NCBI GenBank assembly: GCA_016215115.1
Contig: JACRLN010000017.1
Location: 1-51,544 of the forward strand
Length of the DNA: 51,544 bases
Direction: 5' to 3'
DNA from: Nitrospirota bacterium
GTDB lineage: Bacteria > Nitrospirota > Thermodesulfovibrionia > UBA6902
The notes beneath the pieces were generated by a model, which saw only the letters and a program-made list of their open reading frames with translations, had not been told where the DNA came from and searched no databases. The translations under genes and the position numbers were made by a program. Numbering within the stretch: the first letter of the stretch is position 1; each line of letters opens with the position of its first letter. Positions 455 to 51,544 of the stretch are shown here, in pieces.

Positions 455-901
455 ATGAAAAGAATAATGCTGCTTTTTAGTTGTCTTGCTGTTCTGATTT
501 CAGGTTGTGCAAGTGCAAACAAATATGTTTTCTATGACGGTCCCAGTCTTCCAAAAAATAAAGTTGCAATCCTGTATGCCCCTGAAAATACAAATGTCAG
601 GCTTTTTGCTGTCAATAATCATAAATCTTCGAGCATTAACGGATTTGGTTCGGAATGGGGAGATGCATTTATAATCGAACTTCTTCCGGGAACATATAAT
701 CTTGCAGTAGGATATCGTGAGGTATACGGAGTTATCATATACTTTTCAAAAGACAATAAGGAAGTAGTTTTTAAGGCCGAGGCCGGACATATATATTTAC
801 TCACCGCCGAAAGCAAAAAATCTATTGAGGGAGTATGGTCTATTCCTAAAGTAATAGATGTAACACCGGATGTGGAGAAAAACGAAAAATACAGCTTTTA
901 A
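455..901 (+). CDS. Small putative lipoprotein
   Basis: 148 residues. The start at 455 is preferred over an upstream in-frame start at 272 because it has a GGAGG (438-442) upstream and begins a clean lipoprotein signal: basic start MKR, hydrophobic stretch, lipobox LISGC with the acylated cysteine at residue 18. The mature part is about 130 residues with many beta-forming segments (KVAILYAPENTNVRLFAVN, ELLPGTYNLAVGYR, GHIYLLTAESK). This resembles small envelope proteins with a PEGA-like or transthyretin-like fold, but I do not recognise the family. It lies between two transposase-type repeats, so it may be accessory. Envelope location is inferred from the signal only. Confidence 0.75.
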   Translation: MKRIMLLFSCLAVLISGCASANKYVFYDGPSLPKNKVAILYAPENTNVRLFAVNNHKSSSINGFGSEWGDAFIIELLPGTYNLAVGYREVYGVIIYFSKDNKEVVFKAEAGHIYLLTAESKKSIEGVWSIPKVIDVTPDVEKNEKYSF

Positions 902-945
902 AACATTAAAAACCGGATCATTTTAATTGCAGATCGCCGGGCGGT

Positions 946-1422
946 TTACAGTTCCTTTATCACCGCAAGTTCATTGCATTCCGGGAATTTATGACATTTG
1001 AGGCATTCACCCCAGATCTTTTGCGGCAGGGAATTTTTATCAATATCGGCAAACCCCAGTTCTTTAAAGAATCCCGGGTGATATGTAAGTGCAAATACTT
1101 TCTTAACTCCGAGTTTTTCTGCTTCTTCCAGGCATTTTTTTACAAGTTTTTTGCCTATACCCTGACCCTGATAATTATTAGAAACAGCTACGGACCTGAT
1201 CTCGGCAAGATCTTCCCACAGGATGTGGAGAGCGGCGACGCCGATGATCTTATCATTATCAAGACATATATAAAAATCACGGATGTTCTCATAGATCTCG
1301 TTGAGGGAGCGAGGCAGCATCTCGTCCTTATTGGCAAATTGATTGACAAGCGTATGTATTGCCTTTGTGTCAGTAATAAGCGCTTTTTTGATCTGGCGTT
1401 TAGTTGAGTTTTTTCTTATCAC
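946..1422 (-). CDS. GNAT N-acetyltransferase, short ArgA-like
   Basis: 158 residues from a GTG at 1422 that follows AGGAAA. A longer frame to 1452 would start inside the mobile repeat and is rejected. The GNAT fold is clear: an IRSVAV strand, then the acetyl-CoA pyrophosphate loop NYQGQGIGKKL, then a FFKELGF region near the C-terminus. The tail IWGECLKCHKFPECNE with three cysteines is typical of short N-acetylglutamate synthase-like acetyltransferases of arginine synthesis in bacteria that lack classical ArgA. Acetylation of glutamate is therefore the likely role but is not proved by sequence. It faces away from the flagellar genes and lies between repeat copies, so its linkage to the cluster is probably accidental. 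Confidence 0.8.
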   Translation of the reverse strand: MIRKNSTKRQIKKALITDTKAIHTLVNQFANKDEMLPRSLNEIYENIRDFYICLDNDKIIGVAALHILWEDLAEIRSVAVSNNYQGQGIGKKLVKKCLEEAEKLGVKKVFALTYHPGFFKELGFADIDKNSLPQKIWGECLKCHKFPECNELAVIKEL

Positions 1423-1441
1423 TTTTCCTGAGTAGAAGCAA

Positions 1442-2532
1442 AGGGGTCGCACCTTGACATTGGAAGGTTTCTGCCAGAAATAGATGATAAAAAATTGACA
1501 TTGGCCGATAGAAAAGGCTAATTTAATGAAGCCTTAAAAAATATTTTATGGGGACATGGCAAGATCATTACGAATAGAATTTGAAGGGGCGTTGTATCAT
1601 ATCACGTCGAGGGGAAACGAGAGGAAGAAAATATTCTTCTCAAAGAGCGATTATGATAAATTTCTCCACTATGTCGCTGAGGCCAAGAAAAAATATGGAA
1701 TAAAAATTCATTGCTATGTTCTGATGAGCAATCATTATCATTTGGTTATAGAGACACCGGAAGCCAATATTAGCAGGGCAATGCATCACATAAACAGTTC
1801 ATATACTACCTATGTCAATATAAAGAGAAAGCGAAGCGGCCATTTGTTTCAGGGAAGATTCAAGGCAATTGTAGTTGACCGGGACAACTATCTGGCAGAA
1901 TTAAGCAGATATATTCATCTTAATCCGGTCAGGGCAAAAATGGTACAGAAACCGGATGAATATCCCTACAGTAGTTACAATGCCTACATCACAAAGAATG
2001 GGAATAAATTGTTAACGCAGGATCTTATATTGAAAATGATTTCAAATAATGAGATTCATGTCAGGAATGAATACCGGCGATTTATAGAAAGCGCAATTGG
2101 GACAGAACTCGATAGTCCTTTAAAAGATACATACGGTGGCATTATTCTTGGCAAGAAGAAATTTATTAAAGAGATATTAAGCCGAGTGAAGGAGACTTTC
2201 TTGCAGGTTGAGGAAATTTCTAACAGAAAGGCGATGAAGTCATTGTATAATATGGCAGAGATAATAGACTTCTTAGAAAATTATTTCAATGTCAGCAAAA
2301 ACGAACTTATAGAGAAAAAATATTCTAAGTTGCGGCGGATCGCAATTTATTTGATAAAGGAAAATACGGGAGCAACTAATAGCGAAATCGGAAATTATTT
2401 CGGAAGAATAACATATTCAGCAGTAGCTAAGTCATGTGAACGATTCAAAAGAACACTAAAGATAAACAGAAAGCTGAAGGAGGAAATCCACAAAATTGGA
2501 CAGGAACTGTCTAAAGTCAAGGTGCGACCCCT
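1442..2532 (+). mobile_element. REP-associated transposase unit bounded by 17-bp inverted repeats
   Basis: The 17-mer aggggtcgcaccttgac at 1442-1458 is exactly inverted at 2516-2532. Between them lies one transposase gene (1556-2536) whose last codons run through the right repeat. A third, direct copy lies at 244-260. The right repeat directly abuts a decapitated flagellar motE-like gene. No target duplication is apparent, as expected for HUH single-strand transposases. Element limits are inferred from the repeats alone. Confidence 0.65.
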
Positions 2533-2536
2533 ATGA
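1556..2536 (+). CDS. REP-associated tyrosine transposase (Y1/HUH, RAYT family)
   Basis: 326 residues, start after gggac. The N-terminal 150 residues are a Y1_Tnp (IS200-like) domain: MARSLRIEFEGALYHITSRGN, the HUH pair in NHYHLVIET, GHLFQGRFKA, and the candidate nucleophile tyrosine in SRYIHLNPVRA. The C-terminal third (LIKENTGATNSEIGNYFGRI, YSAVAKSCERF) is a DnaA-like helix-turn-helix domain usual in long RAYTs. The coding region ends inside the inverted repeat, giving the tail SKVKVRPL. RAYTs cut and join single-stranded DNA at REP-like hairpins. The gene looks complete. Its position explains the disrupted genes on both sides. Confidence 0.9.
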   Translation: MARSLRIEFEGALYHITSRGNERKKIFFSKSDYDKFLHYVAEAKKKYGIKIHCYVLMSNHYHLVIETPEANISRAMHHINSSYTTYVNIKRKRSGHLFQGRFKAIVVDRDNYLAELSRYIHLNPVRAKMVQKPDEYPYSSYNAYITKNGNKLLTQDLILKMISNNEIHVRNEYRRFIESAIGTELDSPLKDTYGGIILGKKKFIKEILSRVKETFLQVEEISNRKAMKSLYNMAEIIDFLENYFNVSKNELIEKKYSKLRRIAIYLIKENTGATNSEIGNYFGRITYSAVAKSCERFKRTLKINRKLKEEIHKIGQELSKVKVRPL

Positions 2537-2756
2537 TGTGATACAACAGGCAACAGAAGAAGGAGGCAAGAGATTAAAGCATGTGGCAAAGGCATATGAA
2601 GCTATGCCGCCTGAAGACGCCGCTACACGACTTGCAGGACTTGATAATGAAACATCAGTTCAGATACTGCTGAAAATGGAGACTGATAAAGGAGGGGGTT
2701 TTTTATTGGAAAAACTTTCCTTATCAAGAAAATATTTCATTTATTTCAAATCTTAA
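2533..2756 (+). pseudogene. motE-like (MgtE N-terminal domain) flagellar protein, 5' truncated
   Basis: From the base after the right transposase repeat an open frame encodes AKAYEAMPPEDAATRLAGLD, then NETSVQILLKM and KGGGFLLEKL. That is the helical repeat pattern of the MgtE intracellular N domain found in MotE/FlbB-like proteins, which usually sit between fliJ and fliK. The next gene here is fliK, so the position fits. The signal peptide and coiled-coil half are missing, replaced by repeat sequence; the frame nominally opens at 2496 inside the transposase gene. The last dozen residues are atypical. I read this as the 3' remnant of a flagellar gene lost to a transposase-linked rearrangement. 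Confidence 0.6.
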
Positions 2757-2815
2757 AAATTCTATAGTTTTTTTAAAAAAGCTGGAATAACAAAGACTTG
2801 TCAATTCAATACTAA

Positions 2816-2832
2816 CTGGCATGTCTGTTGCT
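2816..2832 (+). promoter_or_regulatory. Sigma-54 promoter of fliK-flgD-flgE
   Basis: ctggcatgtctgttgct fits YTGGCACGN4TTGCW with one difference and exactly 10 bases between GG and GC. The predicted start is near 2843, immediately before fliK, so the fliK leader would be almost absent. Confidence 0.8.
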
Positions 2833-2844
2833 TTATAGGTCGTC

Positions 2845-4455
2845 ATGGAAATGAATCTCGCAAATATGCCGGATATAAATACCATACCGCAAGTTAATTC
2901 TGCAGCAGTTCCATCATCTGATGGAAATACCCAATCATGCAAACCATGCGAATCCAGGTTTGCTTCCATTGTTAATAAGGAAATTAATAGTCATGAGGCA
3001 GGTAATAAATCTGACAATTTATCAGGAAGCGCTCATGGAAATGAATTAAATAGCAGATCTGAACAGGCAGGAAACACATCAGATTTAAATATATCAGCAA
3101 ACAGTCCTCAAAATAAATCTGACAAATCCGGGAAGGAATCAGTATCAGAGGTACAAGGTAAAAAAGGATCAAAGATAGACAAGCTACTTTTAAATATGAT
3201 CGGAAGTTCAGTAACAGCGAATACAAACGGTTTGCAGGTCAGTTTAATAAATGAAATTGCAGATCCGGCAATAACAGAAGAAGCGCTTCAGCAGTTAATA
3301 AGTCAGCAAGAACAAAACATACCTGTTGAAAAGGGTTTACTGGCCAACTTAATCAAACAAATTAAAGATCAAGAAATAACAGAAGAAGCGCCTCAGCAGT
3401 TAATAAATCAGCAAGATCAAAACATACCTGCTGAAAAGGGTTTGAAAGTGGGCGCTTTATTATACTCCATGACTAACAATGTTGTTAATCCAACAGGCGA
3501 TTCTCATGCTGACTTGATTAACCAAAGTAACAGCGATACAAAAACTAAAGGAGAGACATTTACAGGAGAAATAAAGGGTTCTCCTGAACATGGTTTAAAA
3601 ACTGGCACGTTGTTATCCGGGACAAAGATAGAAACTCCCTTACGCGACTTAATTAAAGAGGGGACGGGAGGATTTTCAGCAGAGAAATCTCTATCAGCGT
3701 TTGCTCAGAATGAGAATAATAAGACCGCTTCAGACAGCGGCAAGTTATCTGTAGTGGAGAAACTCATGGAGCACTTTGATAAGAATAATAAAAATGAACT
3801 GAATCATTTAAAATCAGCCAAGGTACAGCAGGATATTACAGGTTCCGGTCTTACGGAAAACAATAACAATTCAAAAAATATTCAGGGCGGGCTGTCACTT
3901 GAGGTTGTGAAAGAAATCAGTAAAGCAGAGGGCTTTAAAAATATTACGGACAATTCTGTAAAAATGGAAAAAATTGAATCAACGTCTGATAACACCAATC
4001 TGTTAAATCATTCAGGTATCAAATTAGATAGCAGTAAACTTGCAGAAGCAATATCTTCAGGAAATGCATCGAGGCCCCCGGGAGCCAATCAGGCGCTGGA
4101 TAACATTGTCTATGTTATAAAAGGCAACAGTAAGCTGGGCGTTAGTGTTGAGCATGACATCCTTGGGAAACTTAACATCAATCTCAGCATGGAAAAAGGC
4201 ATGTTGAATGTACACATTAATACCTCCGGAAAAATAGCGAGGGAATTCATTGAGAATAATATTAACTACATTGTTGACTCTCTTGCAAAAGACGGTTTAA
4301 GTGTCGGAGGATTCTCGGTAGGATTGAAAAATCGTAATGACCATGAAGAAAATGTCTTTATTATGAACAACAAACAGGAAAGCCAGGAAAAACAGGTTAT
4401 AAATGAGAAAACAAAAATAAGTGCTATAAGCGGCCTTGTCAGTGTGTTTGCATAA
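2845..4455 (+). CDS. fliK: Flagellar hook-length control protein FliK
   Basis: 536 residues. The first 420 are low-complexity, polar and Asn/Ser/Lys-rich with no recognisable fold, as in FliK rulers. The C-terminal part (about 425-515) is the Flg_hook domain: KLGVSVEHDILGKLNINLS, GMLNVHINTSGKIAREFIE, then LAKDGLSVGGFSVGL. FliK is a secreted ruler that switches export through FlhB from hook to filament substrates. flgD and flgE follow, as in many fliK operons. A 35-residue unit is tandemly duplicated at about residues 133-202. Start choice is uncertain: the sigma-54 start site would lie 2 bases before 2845, so in-frame ATGs at 2851 or 2866 are possible; none has a good ribosome site. Confidence 0.9.
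   Translation: MEMNLANMPDINTIPQVNSAAVPSSDGNTQSCKPCESRFASIVNKEINSHEAGNKSDNLSGSAHGNELNSRSEQAGNTSDLNISANSPQNKSDKSGKESVSEVQGKKGSKIDKLLLNMIGSSVTANTNGLQVSLINEIADPAITEEALQQLISQQEQNIPVEKGLLANLIKQIKDQEITEEAPQQLINQQDQNIPAEKGLKVGALLYSMTNNVVNPTGDSHADLINQSNSDTKTKGETFTGEIKGSPEHGLKTGTLLSGTKIETPLRDLIKEGTGGFSAEKSLSAFAQNENNKTASDSGKLSVVEKLMEHFDKNNKNELNHLKSAKVQQDITGSGLTENNNNSKNIQGGLSLEVVKEISKAEGFKNITDNSVKMEKIESTSDNTNLLNHSGIKLDSSKLAEAISSGNASRPPGANQALDNIVYVIKGNSKLGVSVEHDILGKLNINLSMEKGMLNVHINTSGKIAREFIENNINYIVDSLAKDGLSVGGFSVGLKNRNDHEENVFIMNNKQESQEKQVINEKTKISAISGLVSVFA
3241..3450 (+). repeat. Tandem 105-bp duplication inside fliK
   Basis: Two 105-bp units. Their cores 3271-3338 and 3376-3443 differ at 4 of 68 bases and encode the near-identical ITEEALQQLISQQEQNIPVE and ITEEAPQQLINQQDQNIPAE. 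The frame is kept (35 residues per unit). Confidence 0.9.
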
Positions 4456-7693: not shown

Positions 7694-7789
7694 TTTTTAA
7701 AACCTGTTATAAATAATACGATGTATTTTTTTGTCATTCTTTCATAAGCAGATCGAAGCTGCTCTAATCATTATTTATACTGCTCCACC

Positions 7790-7947
7790 GTAACCCTTCA
7801 GTTACGGGTGGCAATAATTGTTTAAAGCGTGTCATCCCCGCAGTCCTTTGAGCGGGGATCCAGTTCTCTGTTTTCTGGATTCCCGCTTAACAGATCGCGG
7901 GAATGACAATCCAAATAGTTTTTTTGTCACCCATAACTGAAGGGTTA
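7790..7947. mobile_element. 158-bp MITE-like element with 9-bp target duplication at the cheW stop
   Basis: Inverted ends of 20 bp (taacccttcagttacgggtg at 7791-7810 and its complement at 7928-7947, one mismatch) enclose about 117 bp. The 9-mer tgctccacc directly flanks it at 7781-7789 and 7948-7956. Removing the element and one 9-mer gives cheW ending GGT GGA GCA GTA TAA; at present it ends GGT GGA GCA TAA, with the stop supplied by the element. No transposase lies inside. A second palindrome (7831-7907) is nested within. Confidence 0.8.
7831..7907. repeat. Nested GGAATGAC-type palindrome
   Basis: Begins gtcatccccgc and ends gcgggaatgac, with a second inner pair (agcggggatccag / ctggattcccgct). 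Sequences of the same family occur at 35634-35907, and a similar GGAATGAC end occurs at 42033-42040. Confidence 0.75.
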
Positions 7948-8391
7948 TGCTCCACCCATTAATCCGTCTATATCAATAAGTATAATGAGTCTGTTCTCAA
8001 GTTTTGCTATCCCTTTGATGAACATGCTGCTCATGCTTGATGCCATCGGCGGCGGTGGCTCTACTATATCTGCAGGTATTCTCAATACTTCCGAAACAGA
8101 ATCCACAACAAGTCCGTATGTAACACCATGAATATCCATAATTATAACCCTTGAAGAATCATCGGTATCTTTATTGTAAAGACCGAATTTTTTTCTGAGA
8201 TTTATTACAGGGATGACCTTACCACGAAGATTAATTACACCTTCCACATAGTCTGGAGCATTAGGTACCCTTGTTATCTCTGTTATCCTGTTTATCTCCT
8301 GTACATTAAGGATATTTACAGCATATTCTTCTTTTTCAAGGGTAAATGTTACCAATTGCAATACCTGTTCACTTACCATTGTATTTCCCAT
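7945..8391 (-). CDS. cheW: Chemotaxis coupling protein CheW
   Basis: 148 residues covering one CheW beta-barrel: LQLVTFTLEKEEYAVNILNV, then the receptor/kinase contact region VPNAPDYVEGVINLRGKVIP, then GVTYGLVVDSVSEVLRIP and the final LENRLIILIDIDGLM. CheW links chemoreceptors to CheA. The last codons coincide with the 9-bp target duplication of the downstream inserted element, which replaced the original terminal GTA TAA by TAA and so removed one valine. Upstream is an 80-bp palindrome, then the CheW-CheZ fusion gene. Two CheW domains in one operon suggest different array roles. Confidence 0.96.
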   Translation of the reverse strand: MGNTMVSEQVLQLVTFTLEKEEYAVNILNVQEINRITEITRVPNAPDYVEGVINLRGKVIPVINLRKKFGLYNKDTDDSSRVIIMDIHGVTYGLVVDSVSEVLRIPADIVEPPPPMASSMSSMFIKGIAKLENRLIILIDIDGLMGGA

Positions 8392-8494: not shown

Positions 8495-9733
8495 TTAAAA
8501 ATCAAAATCATTTAAAAGCGCTTCAACGTCAGACTGAGTAACTTTCTCAGCCGATTTAACGTCATTTCCAAATGTTTTATTCTGTCCCGCACCAACGCCA
8601 ACAACAGTTTTATCTGATTCTGCTCTAATCAGCACTCCAAACTTTGTTATCAACCTCAAGAGTTCAACTTCAACATTATTTACAAGATCTATAACCTTTT
8701 TGATAGTCTGACCTGTAATATCCTGAAACTGCTGTGCAGTAAGTATTATGGTCATATCATTGTCCATTGAATCCTTAAAAGATCTGAGATAATTAACTGA
8801 TTCTTCGTGTCCTTTAATTTCTTCGATATGTTTTGAAAAATCAATCGATTCTTCAAAATACCTTTCCACAATCTCCATTGTTTTATTAGCGGCTTCTTCC
8901 GTTTTATTGATTACAAATTGTAGGTTGTCAACAGCGTTAGGGACATCAGTTTTGGTAAGTTTCTGGAGGCCATTGTTTACGGAGCTTCTGAATTCCTCAA
9001 GTGAATCGTGCAGTCTTCTTGTTATTTTCCCGATTTCCTTAAAGAGATCACTGTCTGTTGCCTTGACTAATTGCTCAACAATACTTTCCATACGGTCATA
9101 TTCGTGAGCTGATAATGCATCCATAAAACTCAACATCAATTCAAATATGTTGTGTTTGGGATCGTTCTTGTCGAGTTTAGTGCTTAAGAAGTCCTTTGCA
9201 TCACGCAATTCTTTTACAGTAACTTTCCCGCCGCTCGTATCAATTTCTCTGGTAATTTCAACATTGTCTCCATCTGTTAAATTACTTACATTGACAATAG
9301 TATCTTCAAGCAGACTCATGTCATTGAGAGGCAGGATTTTTTTAGTGTTTAACAAAACAATAAGTCTGTTATCAAATTTAGCAACACCTTCTAAAAGTTC
9401 TACGTTATTACTGATCAGTTTTTCGGGAGGTTCGATATTTGCTTCATCTATTTTTACAACGCCGGTAATGCCATCCACAATTATGCCAAATGTTATTTTT
9501 CCTGCTGAAACAACAATTACTGTTTTTCCTGCTTCTTCACCGCCGTCTGAATTTAAAAGATTTTTTAAATTTACAATTGGAATTACAGTTCCTCTGAGAT
9601 TTGTTATCCCTCTTATATATGACGGCAAATGAGGCAGGACAGTTATTGACGGCATGGTAATAATTTCCCTCACCTTTAAGATAGGTATCATATATTCATT
9701 TTTGTTAAGATTAAACCCTATATATTGTTGCAC
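8495..9733 (-). CDS. CheW-CheZ fusion: coupling domain plus CheY-P phosphatase
   Basis: 412 residues. Residues 1-140 form a complete CheW domain (YIGFNLNKNEYMIPILKVRE, LPSYIRGITNLRGTVIPIVN, FDNRLIVLLNTKKIL). A linker follows, then a helical CheZ domain from about 225: AVDNLQFVINKTEEAANKTM, then ILTAQQFQDITGQTIKKVID. The motif D338-x3-Q342 matches CheZ catalytic Asp143/Gln147 of E. coli (DLTGQ). The last residues SDVEALLNDFDF resemble the CheZ tail helix that binds CheY. The expected role is dephosphorylation of CheY-P, held at receptor arrays by the CheW half. It lies between cheA and cheW. A stand-alone CheZ is the usual form, so the fusion is notable. Confidence 0.88.
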   Translation of the reverse strand: MQQYIGFNLNKNEYMIPILKVREIITMPSITVLPHLPSYIRGITNLRGTVIPIVNLKNLLNSDGGEEAGKTVIVVSAGKITFGIIVDGITGVVKIDEANIEPPEKLISNNVELLEGVAKFDNRLIVLLNTKKILPLNDMSLLEDTIVNVSNLTDGDNVEITREIDTSGGKVTVKELRDAKDFLSTKLDKNDPKHNIFELMLSFMDALSAHEYDRMESIVEQLVKATDSDLFKEIGKITRRLHDSLEEFRSSVNNGLQKLTKTDVPNAVDNLQFVINKTEEAANKTMEIVERYFEESIDFSKHIEEIKGHEESVNYLRSFKDSMDNDMTIILTAQQFQDITGQTIKKVIDLVNNVEVELLRLITKFGVLIRAESDKTVVGVGAGQNKTFGNDVKSAEKVTQSDVEALLNDFDF

Positions 9734-9777: not shown

Positions 9778-11718
9778 TCAGGCTCTTGTCAATTCCATTA
9801 AATTTCTGGACATGCCTGTAACATCGAGTATGAACACAACTTTGCCATCACCTGTTATAGTTGCGCCAAGAACAAAAGAAGAGGTTGTATCCATCCCATT
9901 CAGTGTTTTTATTACGACTTCCTCCTGTCCTACAAGCTTGTCTACAGCTATACAGAACCTTCTGTCTCCCATTGATATAACAATGAGATATTTAAAATCC
10001 AGATCATCATTATTCCCGTTAGATCCAAACCCCAGTATGCTGCTTAAATCAAATAGCGGGCAAATATTATCACGGATAACAATTACGTTCTGTCCCGTAA
10101 TATTATTGATGTCCTTTTTTGATACTTTTAGAGTTTCTTCAATAGGTGACAGAGGAATGGCATATTTGACGCCGTTAACTTCGACCATTAATGCCTGAAT
10201 AATAGCTAACGTTAAAGGTATGCTTATTTTAAAAGTTGTGCCCACGTCTTTTTCCGTTGATACCTCAACATAACCGTTTAAAAGTGATATGTTCGTTTTT
10301 ACAACATCCATGCCAACACCGCGGCCGCTAAGTTCCGTCGCAACTTCTTTTGTGGAAAAACCCGGCATAAATATTATATCTATAGCATCCTTATCTGACA
10401 TTTTCTGGGCTTCTTCTTCTGTTAACAATCCTTTTTCAATGGCTTTTTTCTTCAGCTTGTTGAGATCCATTCCTTTTCCGTCATCCGTTATTTCAACAAC
10501 AATCTGAGTGCCTCTTTGATATGTATTAATAACAATTTTTCCTTTTGACGGCTTGCCTTTGGCAATTCTTTCTTCTGCCGGTTCAATAGCATGATCTATG
10601 GAATTTCTCAATATGTGAGTCATGGGATCTCCAATATGTTCTATCACTGTCTTATCAACTTCTGTACCTTCTCCGAATATTTGCAATTCAACATCTTTAT
10701 TGACAGAGGCTGAAATATCCCTTACGAGTCTCGGGAATTTGCTGAGAACCTTTTGAATGGGCTGCATCCGCATTTTCATGACTGCAATCTGCATATCGGA
10801 AGTAATTCGATCCAGAAAAGAAACTGCTTCCATAAGTATTTCAGTCATTTGATCGTCAGTATATTTCATATCGAAATAATTGGATATATTTAAAAGCCTG
10901 TTTCTTACAAGCACTACCTCGCCGGCGAGATCCATGACCTTATCAATCCTGTTGACGTCCACCCTCAAATTCTGAGCTTTTTGAACATTATCTTTTGCCG
11001 CCTGTATCATTTCATTAGGTTTCTGTTCACCATCAGTTGCAGCCTGTGTGCTTTCAGAATTTTTGATAGAATCATTTATGGTAGTTTTTGCAATTTCCGG
11101 AATTTGTGATAATTCTTCTGCTATTTGTGTTATCTGCGAGGATTTGGATGTTTCCTGAGCATTTTCGGTTACTTTGGCAGATTCAGCAACGTTTACCTTG
11201 TTGAGTGGTTTTTCTGAGGCAGATTCTGGTGAAATGCTTTCAGATTCTTTAGACGCTTTGGATGACTGTTCAGCCCGAATATCCGGTTTTACCGATATTC
11301 CTGCTTGCTCCTTATTATTTAAATTAGACATTGCAGCCTTCAAAGCCTTACCAAGTTCTTGAACCAGGGGAGCAACATTTTCTTCAACACCGTCTTTTTC
11401 TTTTATATGAATGAGAAGCAATCTGAGCATATCGATTGACTCAAGTATCACATCCATGAGAGACTTTGATAAAGAAATTTCGTTGTCTCTGAGTTTCTTC
11501 ATAATATTTTCCGCTGCGTGTGCAACGTCTACGATCAACTGGAATCCAAGAAAACCTGCAGCCCCTTTTATAGTATGCATGGACCTGAATATATCATTTA
11601 TAAGATTTGTATCCTGACCTTTTTGCTCAAGCTCAACAAATCTCGGCTCTATCCTGTCAAGAGATTCTTCCGCCTCTGTGATAAATTCCTGTATTATTTC
11701 TTCCATTTCATCGTTCAT
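9778..11718 (-). CDS. cheA: Chemotaxis histidine kinase CheA
   Basis: 646 residues. The P1 Hpt domain (1-110) carries the phosphorylated H48 in MHTIKGAAGFLG. Residues 130-250 are a Ser/Glu/Lys-rich disordered linker with no recognisable P2 domain. The P3 dimerisation helix begins LRVDVNRIDKVMDLAGEVVL. The P4 ATPase has the N-box HILRNSIDHAIEP, G1 DDGKGMD and G2 GRGVGMDVVK. The P5 CheW-like domain ends the protein (VEVNGVKYAIPLSPIEETL). CheA autophosphorylates under receptor control and passes phosphate to CheY and CheB. Loss of P2 would mean direct docking of regulators on P1/P4. Confidence 0.97.
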   Translation of the reverse strand: MNDEMEEIIQEFITEAEESLDRIEPRFVELEQKGQDTNLINDIFRSMHTIKGAAGFLGFQLIVDVAHAAENIMKKLRDNEISLSKSLMDVILESIDMLRLLLIHIKEKDGVEENVAPLVQELGKALKAAMSNLNNKEQAGISVKPDIRAEQSSKASKESESISPESASEKPLNKVNVAESAKVTENAQETSKSSQITQIAEELSQIPEIAKTTINDSIKNSESTQAATDGEQKPNEMIQAAKDNVQKAQNLRVDVNRIDKVMDLAGEVVLVRNRLLNISNYFDMKYTDDQMTEILMEAVSFLDRITSDMQIAVMKMRMQPIQKVLSKFPRLVRDISASVNKDVELQIFGEGTEVDKTVIEHIGDPMTHILRNSIDHAIEPAEERIAKGKPSKGKIVINTYQRGTQIVVEITDDGKGMDLNKLKKKAIEKGLLTEEEAQKMSDKDAIDIIFMPGFSTKEVATELSGRGVGMDVVKTNISLLNGYVEVSTEKDVGTTFKISIPLTLAIIQALMVEVNGVKYAIPLSPIEETLKVSKKDINNITGQNVIVIRDNICPLFDLSSILGFGSNGNNDDLDFKYLIVISMGDRRFCIAVDKLVGQEEVVIKTLNGMDTTSSFVLGATITGDGKVVFILDVTGMSRNLMELTRA

Positions 11719-50402: not shown

Positions 50403-51422
50403 ATGAATGGGATTTCATTTAGAGAATCTACTGCCGCCAGGTTGTATGATGAGGCGCTGCGGTTAGCTGAAAAAGGCGATTTCAGAGAGGCGCTGAAGCT
50501 TTATGAAAAAATCCTGAGCGATAACCCGGATAATTTGTTAAAGGCAAAAGTTCTTAATGACCTCGGAGCTGTAAGTTTTATAATCGGCGATATCGATAAA
50601 GCGGAAGGACTTTTTAAACAGGCAATCTTTACCGATCCCCTTCTTAAGGATGCGCACAGGAATCTTGTACAGATCAATGCCGGGAAAGTAAGTGATAAAA
50701 GGCCGCGCAAGTTCTCTGTTGTCATTCCTACCTATAATCGCTGTTCGGATCTGCAGAAGTGCATTAAAAGCATCAGGGACCACAGTTTTTACCCTGTGGA
50801 GATGATCGTTATTAGCGATCCCTGCAGCGACGGAACTACGGAGTATCTGCAGAAGGAAAGATTGAAAGAGGATATCATTGTAATAATAAATGAAACGCAT
50901 ATGGGGGTCAATAAGAGCATAAACAGGGGTTTCTCTATTGCAACGGGTGATTATGTATGCCTCCTGAATGACGATGTTGAGGTCATGCCGGGGTGGGATC
51001 TGTCAATACTGGTTACCATAGACGATGACGGCACTGCCGGCGCCGGGGTCTCATTGATCGTTTATCCTGATGGAACTTCACAGTCCGTCGGACAGCATAA
51101 TTTATACAGGAGTGATTATCATGCCTGGATAGGAAAGGGCCCTTTTATTGACACTTCCCGGGTTGAGCGGAAATCTATCGAGAGCTTTCCGGAGTTTCAG
51201 GTATCCAGAGAATGTGATTACGGATTTTTCCCTGTGATGAAAAGAGATTGTTTTAAGAAGATCGGTCTGGTGGATGAACAGTTTGAACATTATTGTGTCG
51301 ACACTGACATTGGTTTAAAGATCCAGCAGATCGGTTACAGGAACATCTATTGTCCGACCAGTGTTATAGTTCATTATGAATTAAGCAAGGAAAATCTGAA
51401 GTCTCATGTAACCCTTCAGTGA
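50403..51422 (+). CDS. TPR-GT2 family glycosyltransferase
   Basis: 339 residues. Residues 10-90 are two TPR units (YDEALRLAEKGDFREALKLY, LGAVSFIIGDIDKAEGLFKQ). From about 103 comes a GT2 domain: KFSVVIPTYNRCSDLQKCIK, GVNKSINRGFSIATGDYVCL, the DxD-type LLNDDVEVMPGWD, and QFEHYCVDTDIGLKIQQIGY. It should transfer a sugar from an NDP donor, probably the product of the operon, to a protein or glycan. The TPR fusion recalls the TPR in the GT4 protein at 39572 and may bind a shared substrate such as flagellin. Confidence 0.88.
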   Translation: MNGISFRESTAARLYDEALRLAEKGDFREALKLYEKILSDNPDNLLKAKVLNDLGAVSFIIGDIDKAEGLFKQAIFTDPLLKDAHRNLVQINAGKVSDKRPRKFSVVIPTYNRCSDLQKCIKSIRDHSFYPVEMIVISDPCSDGTTEYLQKERLKEDIIVIINETHMGVNKSINRGFSIATGDYVCLLNDDVEVMPGWDLSILVTIDDDGTAGAGVSLIVYPDGTSQSVGQHNLYRSDYHAWIGKGPFIDTSRVERKSIESFPEFQVSRECDYGFFPVMKRDCFKKIGLVDEQFEHYCVDTDIGLKIQQIGYRNIYCPTSVIVHYELSKENLKSHVTLQ

Positions 51423-51500
51423 AAGGTGGAAGCAACACGCCTCAGATGTTATTTTTTGAATCAGGGCGGTTTCTTCTTTTTAAGGAGGTGGGGTATCTTT

Positions 51501-51544
51501 ATGGAACAAGAGGGGGGAAGGATCAAGGGTAATGTCCTTGGATA
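51501..51544 (+). CDS. Start of an unidentified gene, cut by the window end
   Basis: ATG at 51501, 10 bases after TAAGGAGGTG, a near-perfect ribosome site. The visible peptide is MEQEGGRIKGNVLG and runs off the window. The direction is that of the sugar operon. The family is not recognisable. Confidence 0.5.
   Translation, partial: MEQEGGRIKGNVLG

Follow-up and report, generated by a model that had tools for sequence, protein, structure and literature searches.

By family rule, the termini of IS66 insertion sequences begin with GTAA (PMC11946415, PMC12898284), and published members combine such ends with 8-bp direct repeats (PMC11946415, PMC3281130). The ISBst12 group of this family is exemplified by ISDge4 (terminal inverted repeat GTAACTGCTCAGCA, 8-bp direct repeats; PMC12898284), and the MITE that we describe here between cheW and cheB has the same type of termini, GTAAC..[CT]TCAG, and the same 8-bp repeats; however, it has no ORF, whereas an IS66 relative in a Desulfomonile MAG (L132) has a single ORF for its PF03050 transposase, and it has only the terminal ~22 bp in common with the group. 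The CGTC-tagged REPs, which are abundant and for which a survey found no dedicated transposase (PMC3733652), resemble the interior of the MITE: both have an AT pair after the tag in the stem and a CCA tail, and both occur head-to-head with a short spacer and as hundreds of genomic units, although the tag in the MITE copy is TGTC. The CGTC-1 dimers of H. neapolitanus all lie within 41-bp palindromes (PMC3733652), whereas here we recognize the palindrome around the dimer as a pair of transposon ends flanked by target duplications. Other bacterial MITEs, such as NEMIS/Correia, RUP, Nezha, and MITEAba12, are likewise short and non-coding, with inverted ends, target duplications, many copies, and a partner IS; the cheW–cheB element differs from them in its IS66-type ends and in an interior that is a captured dispersed repeat, not the remnant of an IS deletion. 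Tn3-derived TIMEs (PMC4133298) are also miniature and form mosaic non-autonomous structures, with Tn3 ends in place of the IS66-type ends found here. We found no IS66-derived MITE in the open-access literature searched, which omits most subscription journals.

Our analyses make it very probable that the insert is a non-autonomous MITE with IS66-family (ISBst12-like) ends and a REP-like dimer as cargo, and that its copies arose through an IS66-type transposase acting in trans. The insertion at cheW is as such ordinary, and the point of interest is the packaging of transposase-less REPs by IS66-type ends; what is new is that the ends are assigned to the IS66 type, that a private REP dimer is the cargo, and that these ends also enclose a second cargo. 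The window, by which we mean the whole 51,544-nucleotide stretch analyzed (positions 1–51,544 of JACRLN010000017.1), belongs to a Nitrospirota bacterium whose assembly (G000; 57 contigs, 2.82 Mb) served as the own genome in all searches. The features of the window to which we refer are the following.

1556-2536: RAYT-like gene, by profile match a Y1_Tnp domain (PF01797) joined in one gene with the C-terminal helix-turn-helix domain of DnaA
6653..7693, minus strand: cheB, the next operon gene (PF01339 and PF00072)
7778..7780, minus strand: displaced ancestral last codon GTA (Val), read from the sequence, with the ancestral TAA at 7777-7775
7782..7789, no strand: left target-site duplication GCTCCACC, 8 bp, the length also seen in sister copies and at 15 pairs of IS ends
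7790..7948, no strand: MITE, 159 bp, with IS66-type ends GTAACC...GGTTA(C>T), delimited from 14 genomic copies, their alignment, and the table of target-site duplications
7790..7813, plus strand: left terminal inverted repeat GTAACCCTTCAGTTACGGGTGGCA
7831..7863, plus strand: REP-like hairpin 1, GTCATCCCCGC...GCGGGGATCCAG
7875..7907, minus strand: REP-like hairpin 2, GTCATTCCCGCGATCTGTTAAGCGGGAATCCAG
7925..7948, minus strand: right terminal inverted repeat, reverse complement ATAACCCTTCAGTTATGGGTGACA, from the sequence
7945..8391, minus strand: cheW, now ending ...LMGGA-stop (PF01584, E 4.6e-41)
7949..7956, no strand: right target-site duplication GCTCCACC, from the sequence and the same table
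8495-9733, minus strand: CheW–CheZ fusion protein (CheW domain plus CheZ phosphatase domain), a member of the chemotaxis operon
9778-11718, minus strand: CheA-like ORF, named from sequence reading alone
51408..51544, plus strand: left end GTAACCCTTCAGTGAAAGGTGGAAG of a resident IS, truncated by the contig end, a candidate autonomous partner by its end motif and its pairs with 8-bp target-site duplications

The element is short, dispersed, and multicopy, has terminal inverted repeats, and contains no ORF, as a MITE does. Its arms pair over 73 nt with 74% complementarity, its folding departs strongly from that of shuffled sequences (z = -8.9 as DNA, -11.9 as RNA; -83 kcal/mol for the RNA hairpin), and the window matches no Rfam family at the gathering threshold. 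The sequence-only reading had proposed a MITE-like insertion, and this is borne out: the own-genome search recovered 13 copies besides that of the window, 91–97% identical and 141–165 bp in length, plus fragments, and the relatives compared have empty cheW–cheB junctions, none showing the same spacer without the duplication. Aligned with their flanks, the 14 copies yield a 158-bp consensus that starts with GTAACCCTTCAGTTACGGGTTGCAATAATTG and ends with GTTTTTTGTCACCCATAACTGAAGGGTTAC, its termini being GTAACCCTTCAGTTACGGG...GAAGGGTTAC, beginning GTAA. A perfect 8-bp target-site duplication brackets six two-ended copies, that of the window included, one further copy matches at 7/8 positions, and a copy on contig C27, next to which an IS lies, matches at 8/8 when the flank on the far side of that IS, found on contig C40, is added; some copies have no recognizable duplication. 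At this C27 site (L021/L068, C27:1-311 and the end of C40) the resident IS lies inside the target duplication right beside the MITE copy, and the events are thus nested and can be ordered. Two identical copies (L019, C20:11868-12007, and L020, C18:3927-4066) share the precise base at which the right end is lost, while their flanks are unrelated and show no duplication, and on C20 a 332-codon ORF extends 36 residues into the first of them.

The TAA stop of cheW, at 7947-7945, lies inside the right terminal inverted repeat of the MITE. When the flanks are joined without the element, cheW ends ...GGT GGA GCA GTA TAA (GGAV-stop) 81 nt before cheB, the empty junction reading GGAGCAGTATAA, so the earlier claims that excision restores this ending and that the element supplies TAA at the cost of one valine are upheld, as is the separation of the two genes, put then at 250 bp and here at 251 nt from the cheW stop to the cheB ATG. 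CheW loses only its C-terminal valine because the GTAA tip, entering in the phase GC|GTAA, gives an alanine codon and then TAA; an intact terminal base would read GCG TAA, also Ala-stop. Elements with GTAA ends can be mild at gene ends in this way, the tip being an immediate stop in one of three phases. The empty junctions come from related species and are not same-species alleles; their cheW–cheB gaps are mostly -1 to 84 nt without a terminal inverted repeat of the MITE type, one gap of 259 nt (G010) is also without such ends, and another junction (G009), ...ATCGGAGAGGCCGTATAA, encodes LIGEAV-stop, near the inferred GGAV-stop of the ancestral cheW. Compared with its nearest sister, the window copy has a single substitution of its own, at the terminal base, and the insertion at cheW therefore looks recent. 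This recency, at a site not common to relatives, is one reason why we regard as unlikely, if compatible with a MITE origin, the proposal that the insert is kept for a function, its spacer hairpin stabilizing or processing the mRNA or uncoupling translation and thereby tuning CheB. The very stable RNA hairpin, the short or overlapping junctions of the relatives, and the reported effects of REPs and MITEs on mRNA stability (PMC3733652) speak for such a role; however, scans at the MITE found neither a T-tract terminator nor a promoter scoring above chance, and with a spacer of already about 81 nt tight coupling was probably absent. Any effect of the insert on cheB expression would be expected to be small.

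The identity of the ends comes from relatives. The left terminal inverted repeat is near-identical to the ends of IS66 elements at two loci (L132 and L099/L129) and to IS left ends, GTAACCATTCAGTTACGGGTGGTAG, in a genome of the same order (G043). The first locus, in a Desulfomonile MAG (L132, 2987-4607), is a complete IS66 element between GTAACCCCTCAGTTACGGGTGGCAAATT on the left and GTAACCCCTCAGTTACTCGCG, with a single 485-codon ORF that matches PF03050 (139.6 bits, over the cut-off) and zf-IS66 and with a 9-bp direct repeat, AACAGTACC, not the usual 8. At the second, in a genome of the same family (G012, L099), an ORF with the IS66 transposase C-terminus (PF03050, 34 bits, above the Pfam cut-off) stops 95 bp inside the terminus GTAACCCTTCAGTGAAGGGTGGCA, and an identical stretch occurs in a record deposited as a 'Deferribacteres bacterium' MAG (L129). 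A Nitrospirae MAG (L133) has PF03050 at 126.5 bits in an IS66-type element; this element (815-3192) carries an accessory DruA-like ORF (PF14236) upstream of the transposase gene. A PF03050 transposase between such ends was seen in relatives only (G012 L099, L132/L133), and most IS66 loci of the relatives have other ends. The longer canonical IS66 motif GTAAGCG is absent from the ends of the MITE, in which GTAAC agrees with ISDge4. Because these PF03050 elements of relatives and the published IS66 members have such ends, we file the MITE under IS66-type, ISBst12-like ends, a class that its termini and its 8-bp direct repeats both fit.

A resident multicopy IS with similar ends is a candidate partner. 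The MITE-type end motif has 86 genomic matches with at most three mismatches (control 0), many of them ~110–140 bp from contig ends, and these contain the ends of an IS of about 29 copies: 29 left ends, GTAACCCTTCAGTGAAAGGTGGAAG, and 23 right ends, GTAACCATTCAGTGACGGGGG, at contig ends, with one right end internal. Its end motifs are GTAACCCTTCAGTGA and GTAACCATTCAGTGA, and the form GTAACC[C/A]TTCAGTGA stands at 52 contig ends. Matching left to right flanks in 696 comparisons gave 15 pairs with identical 8-bp duplications, about 0.01 being expected by chance, and none with 9; from these common duplications, 15 contig joins can be proposed. The contigs stop about 135 bp into the IS, and the rest of its interior is missing from the assembly; a PF03050 profile search of the own genome found no match, which we trace to this gap. 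By its ends and target-site duplications, the resident IS would belong to the IS66 family. Its end pattern was found neither in viral contigs nor in plasmids (distant blastn).

Direct sequence comparison at cheW reveals a 9-base repeat, TGCTCCACC, at 7781-7789 and 7948-7956, from which the sequence-only reading had derived a 158-bp element with a 9-bp duplication. The inverted ends and the 9-base repeat are present, but we read the duplication as 8 bp and the element as 159 bp because 8 bp is the length duplicated both in sister copies and by the related IS; the match at a ninth base (T7781/T7948) is most simply put down to chance together with a terminal C-to-T change in the window copy. That this copy alone duplicated 9 bp and then lost its end base is conceivable, given the 9-bp repeat of the IS66 relative in L132. 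These two cases are also what favors a MITE of a family that duplicates 9 bp (e.g., the IS903 group of IS5, or IS1/IS10-like), which we consider very improbable because sister copies match at 8/8 with complete GTAAC...GTTAC ends, all 15 resident-IS pairs are exactly 8 bp, and GTAAC ends lead to PF03050 transposases.

The inner GGAATGAC palindrome, at 7831-7907, consists of two REP-like hairpins arranged head-to-head as a dimer. The hairpin pattern GTCAT[Y]CCCGC...GCGGG[R]ATCCAG has 196 exact matches in the genome and none in the reversed control, so that this REP-like repeat family is independent of the MITE; its hairpins are often dimeric and have the tag CGTC or TGTC. The cargo is accordingly a CGTC-like REP dimer that is not of the strict CGTC type. 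Among the matches listed (about half of all), the arm GTCATTCCCGCGATCTGTTAAGCGGGAATCCAG or a one-base variant occurs in MITE copies only, and the position of the dimer, with its private arms, is identical in 14/14 copies. The dimer, identically placed in every copy, was therefore enclosed before amplification, and the order of events is capture first and spread second, with the dimer already in the MITE progenitor. The nested palindrome of the sequence-only reading is therefore present at 7831-7907, but the second event that it placed at the cheW locus did not survive this comparison. Two successive events at cheW, a plain MITE entered later by a REP palindrome or a RAYT-moved REPIN, are a very improbable reading, for although the hairpins exist independently of the MITE and the window contains a RAYT-like gene (1556-2536), the shared position and private arms (among the matches listed) of the dimer oppose it, and this RAYT-like gene, the one to which the comparison is confined, has unrelated GGGGTCGCACC inverted repeats at its flanks (about 1440 and 2520) and not the REP of the MITE, as a RAYT-moved REPIN would require.

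We posit that two IS66-type ends, each of about 22 bp, came to enclose a REP-like head-to-head dimer and that an IS66-type transposase, probably supplied by the resident IS or a close relative, then multiplied the resulting unit of 158–159 bp in trans, with 8-bp target duplications produced upon insertion. One copy entered cheW within its last codons, the right end of the element facing the gene, which lengthened the cheW–cheB spacer from 81 to 251 nt and added a predicted strong RNA hairpin without a T-tract. Mobilization in trans and the identity of the mobilizing IS are points that we infer, given that the IS interior is unassembled and that the termini of the MITE and the resident IS agree in part (about 17/22 positions), with nothing in common beyond the terminus. 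In the MITE, a REP dimer has become fixed between ends of the IS66 type and has multiplied together with them, with clean 8-bp duplications, which makes hitch-hiking of REPs on a DDE transposase a directly testable route.

The ends of the MITE are found around another, unrelated palindromic repeat as well, CCCCTCTTTG..AAAGAGGGGTTAGGGGAGATTTT; the genome contains 36 matches to this repeat, many of them without such ends. Of the copies of this second cargo, the one at C32:46504-46658 has remained intact and shows a duplication that matches at 8/8, GCAAAGCT, and others are decayed. At least two unrelated repeat dimers, of the GTCATTCCCGC type and the CCCCTCTTT type, hence stand between the same ends in this genome. 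We tentatively suggest, as a possibility that we hold to be somewhat doubtful, that IS66-type ends serve as a general vehicle, enclosing dispersed palindromic repeats again and again, and give transposase-less CGTC-type REPs a route of spread by a DDE transposase. The first cargo occurs in other genomes as well: a copy in a genome of the same genus (G006) is 168 bp long with the flanks ATAAAGAG/ATAAGGAG, and copies with diverged arms are found in two genomes of another genus (G029 and G035), one of those in G029 having the duplication GATAAATT.
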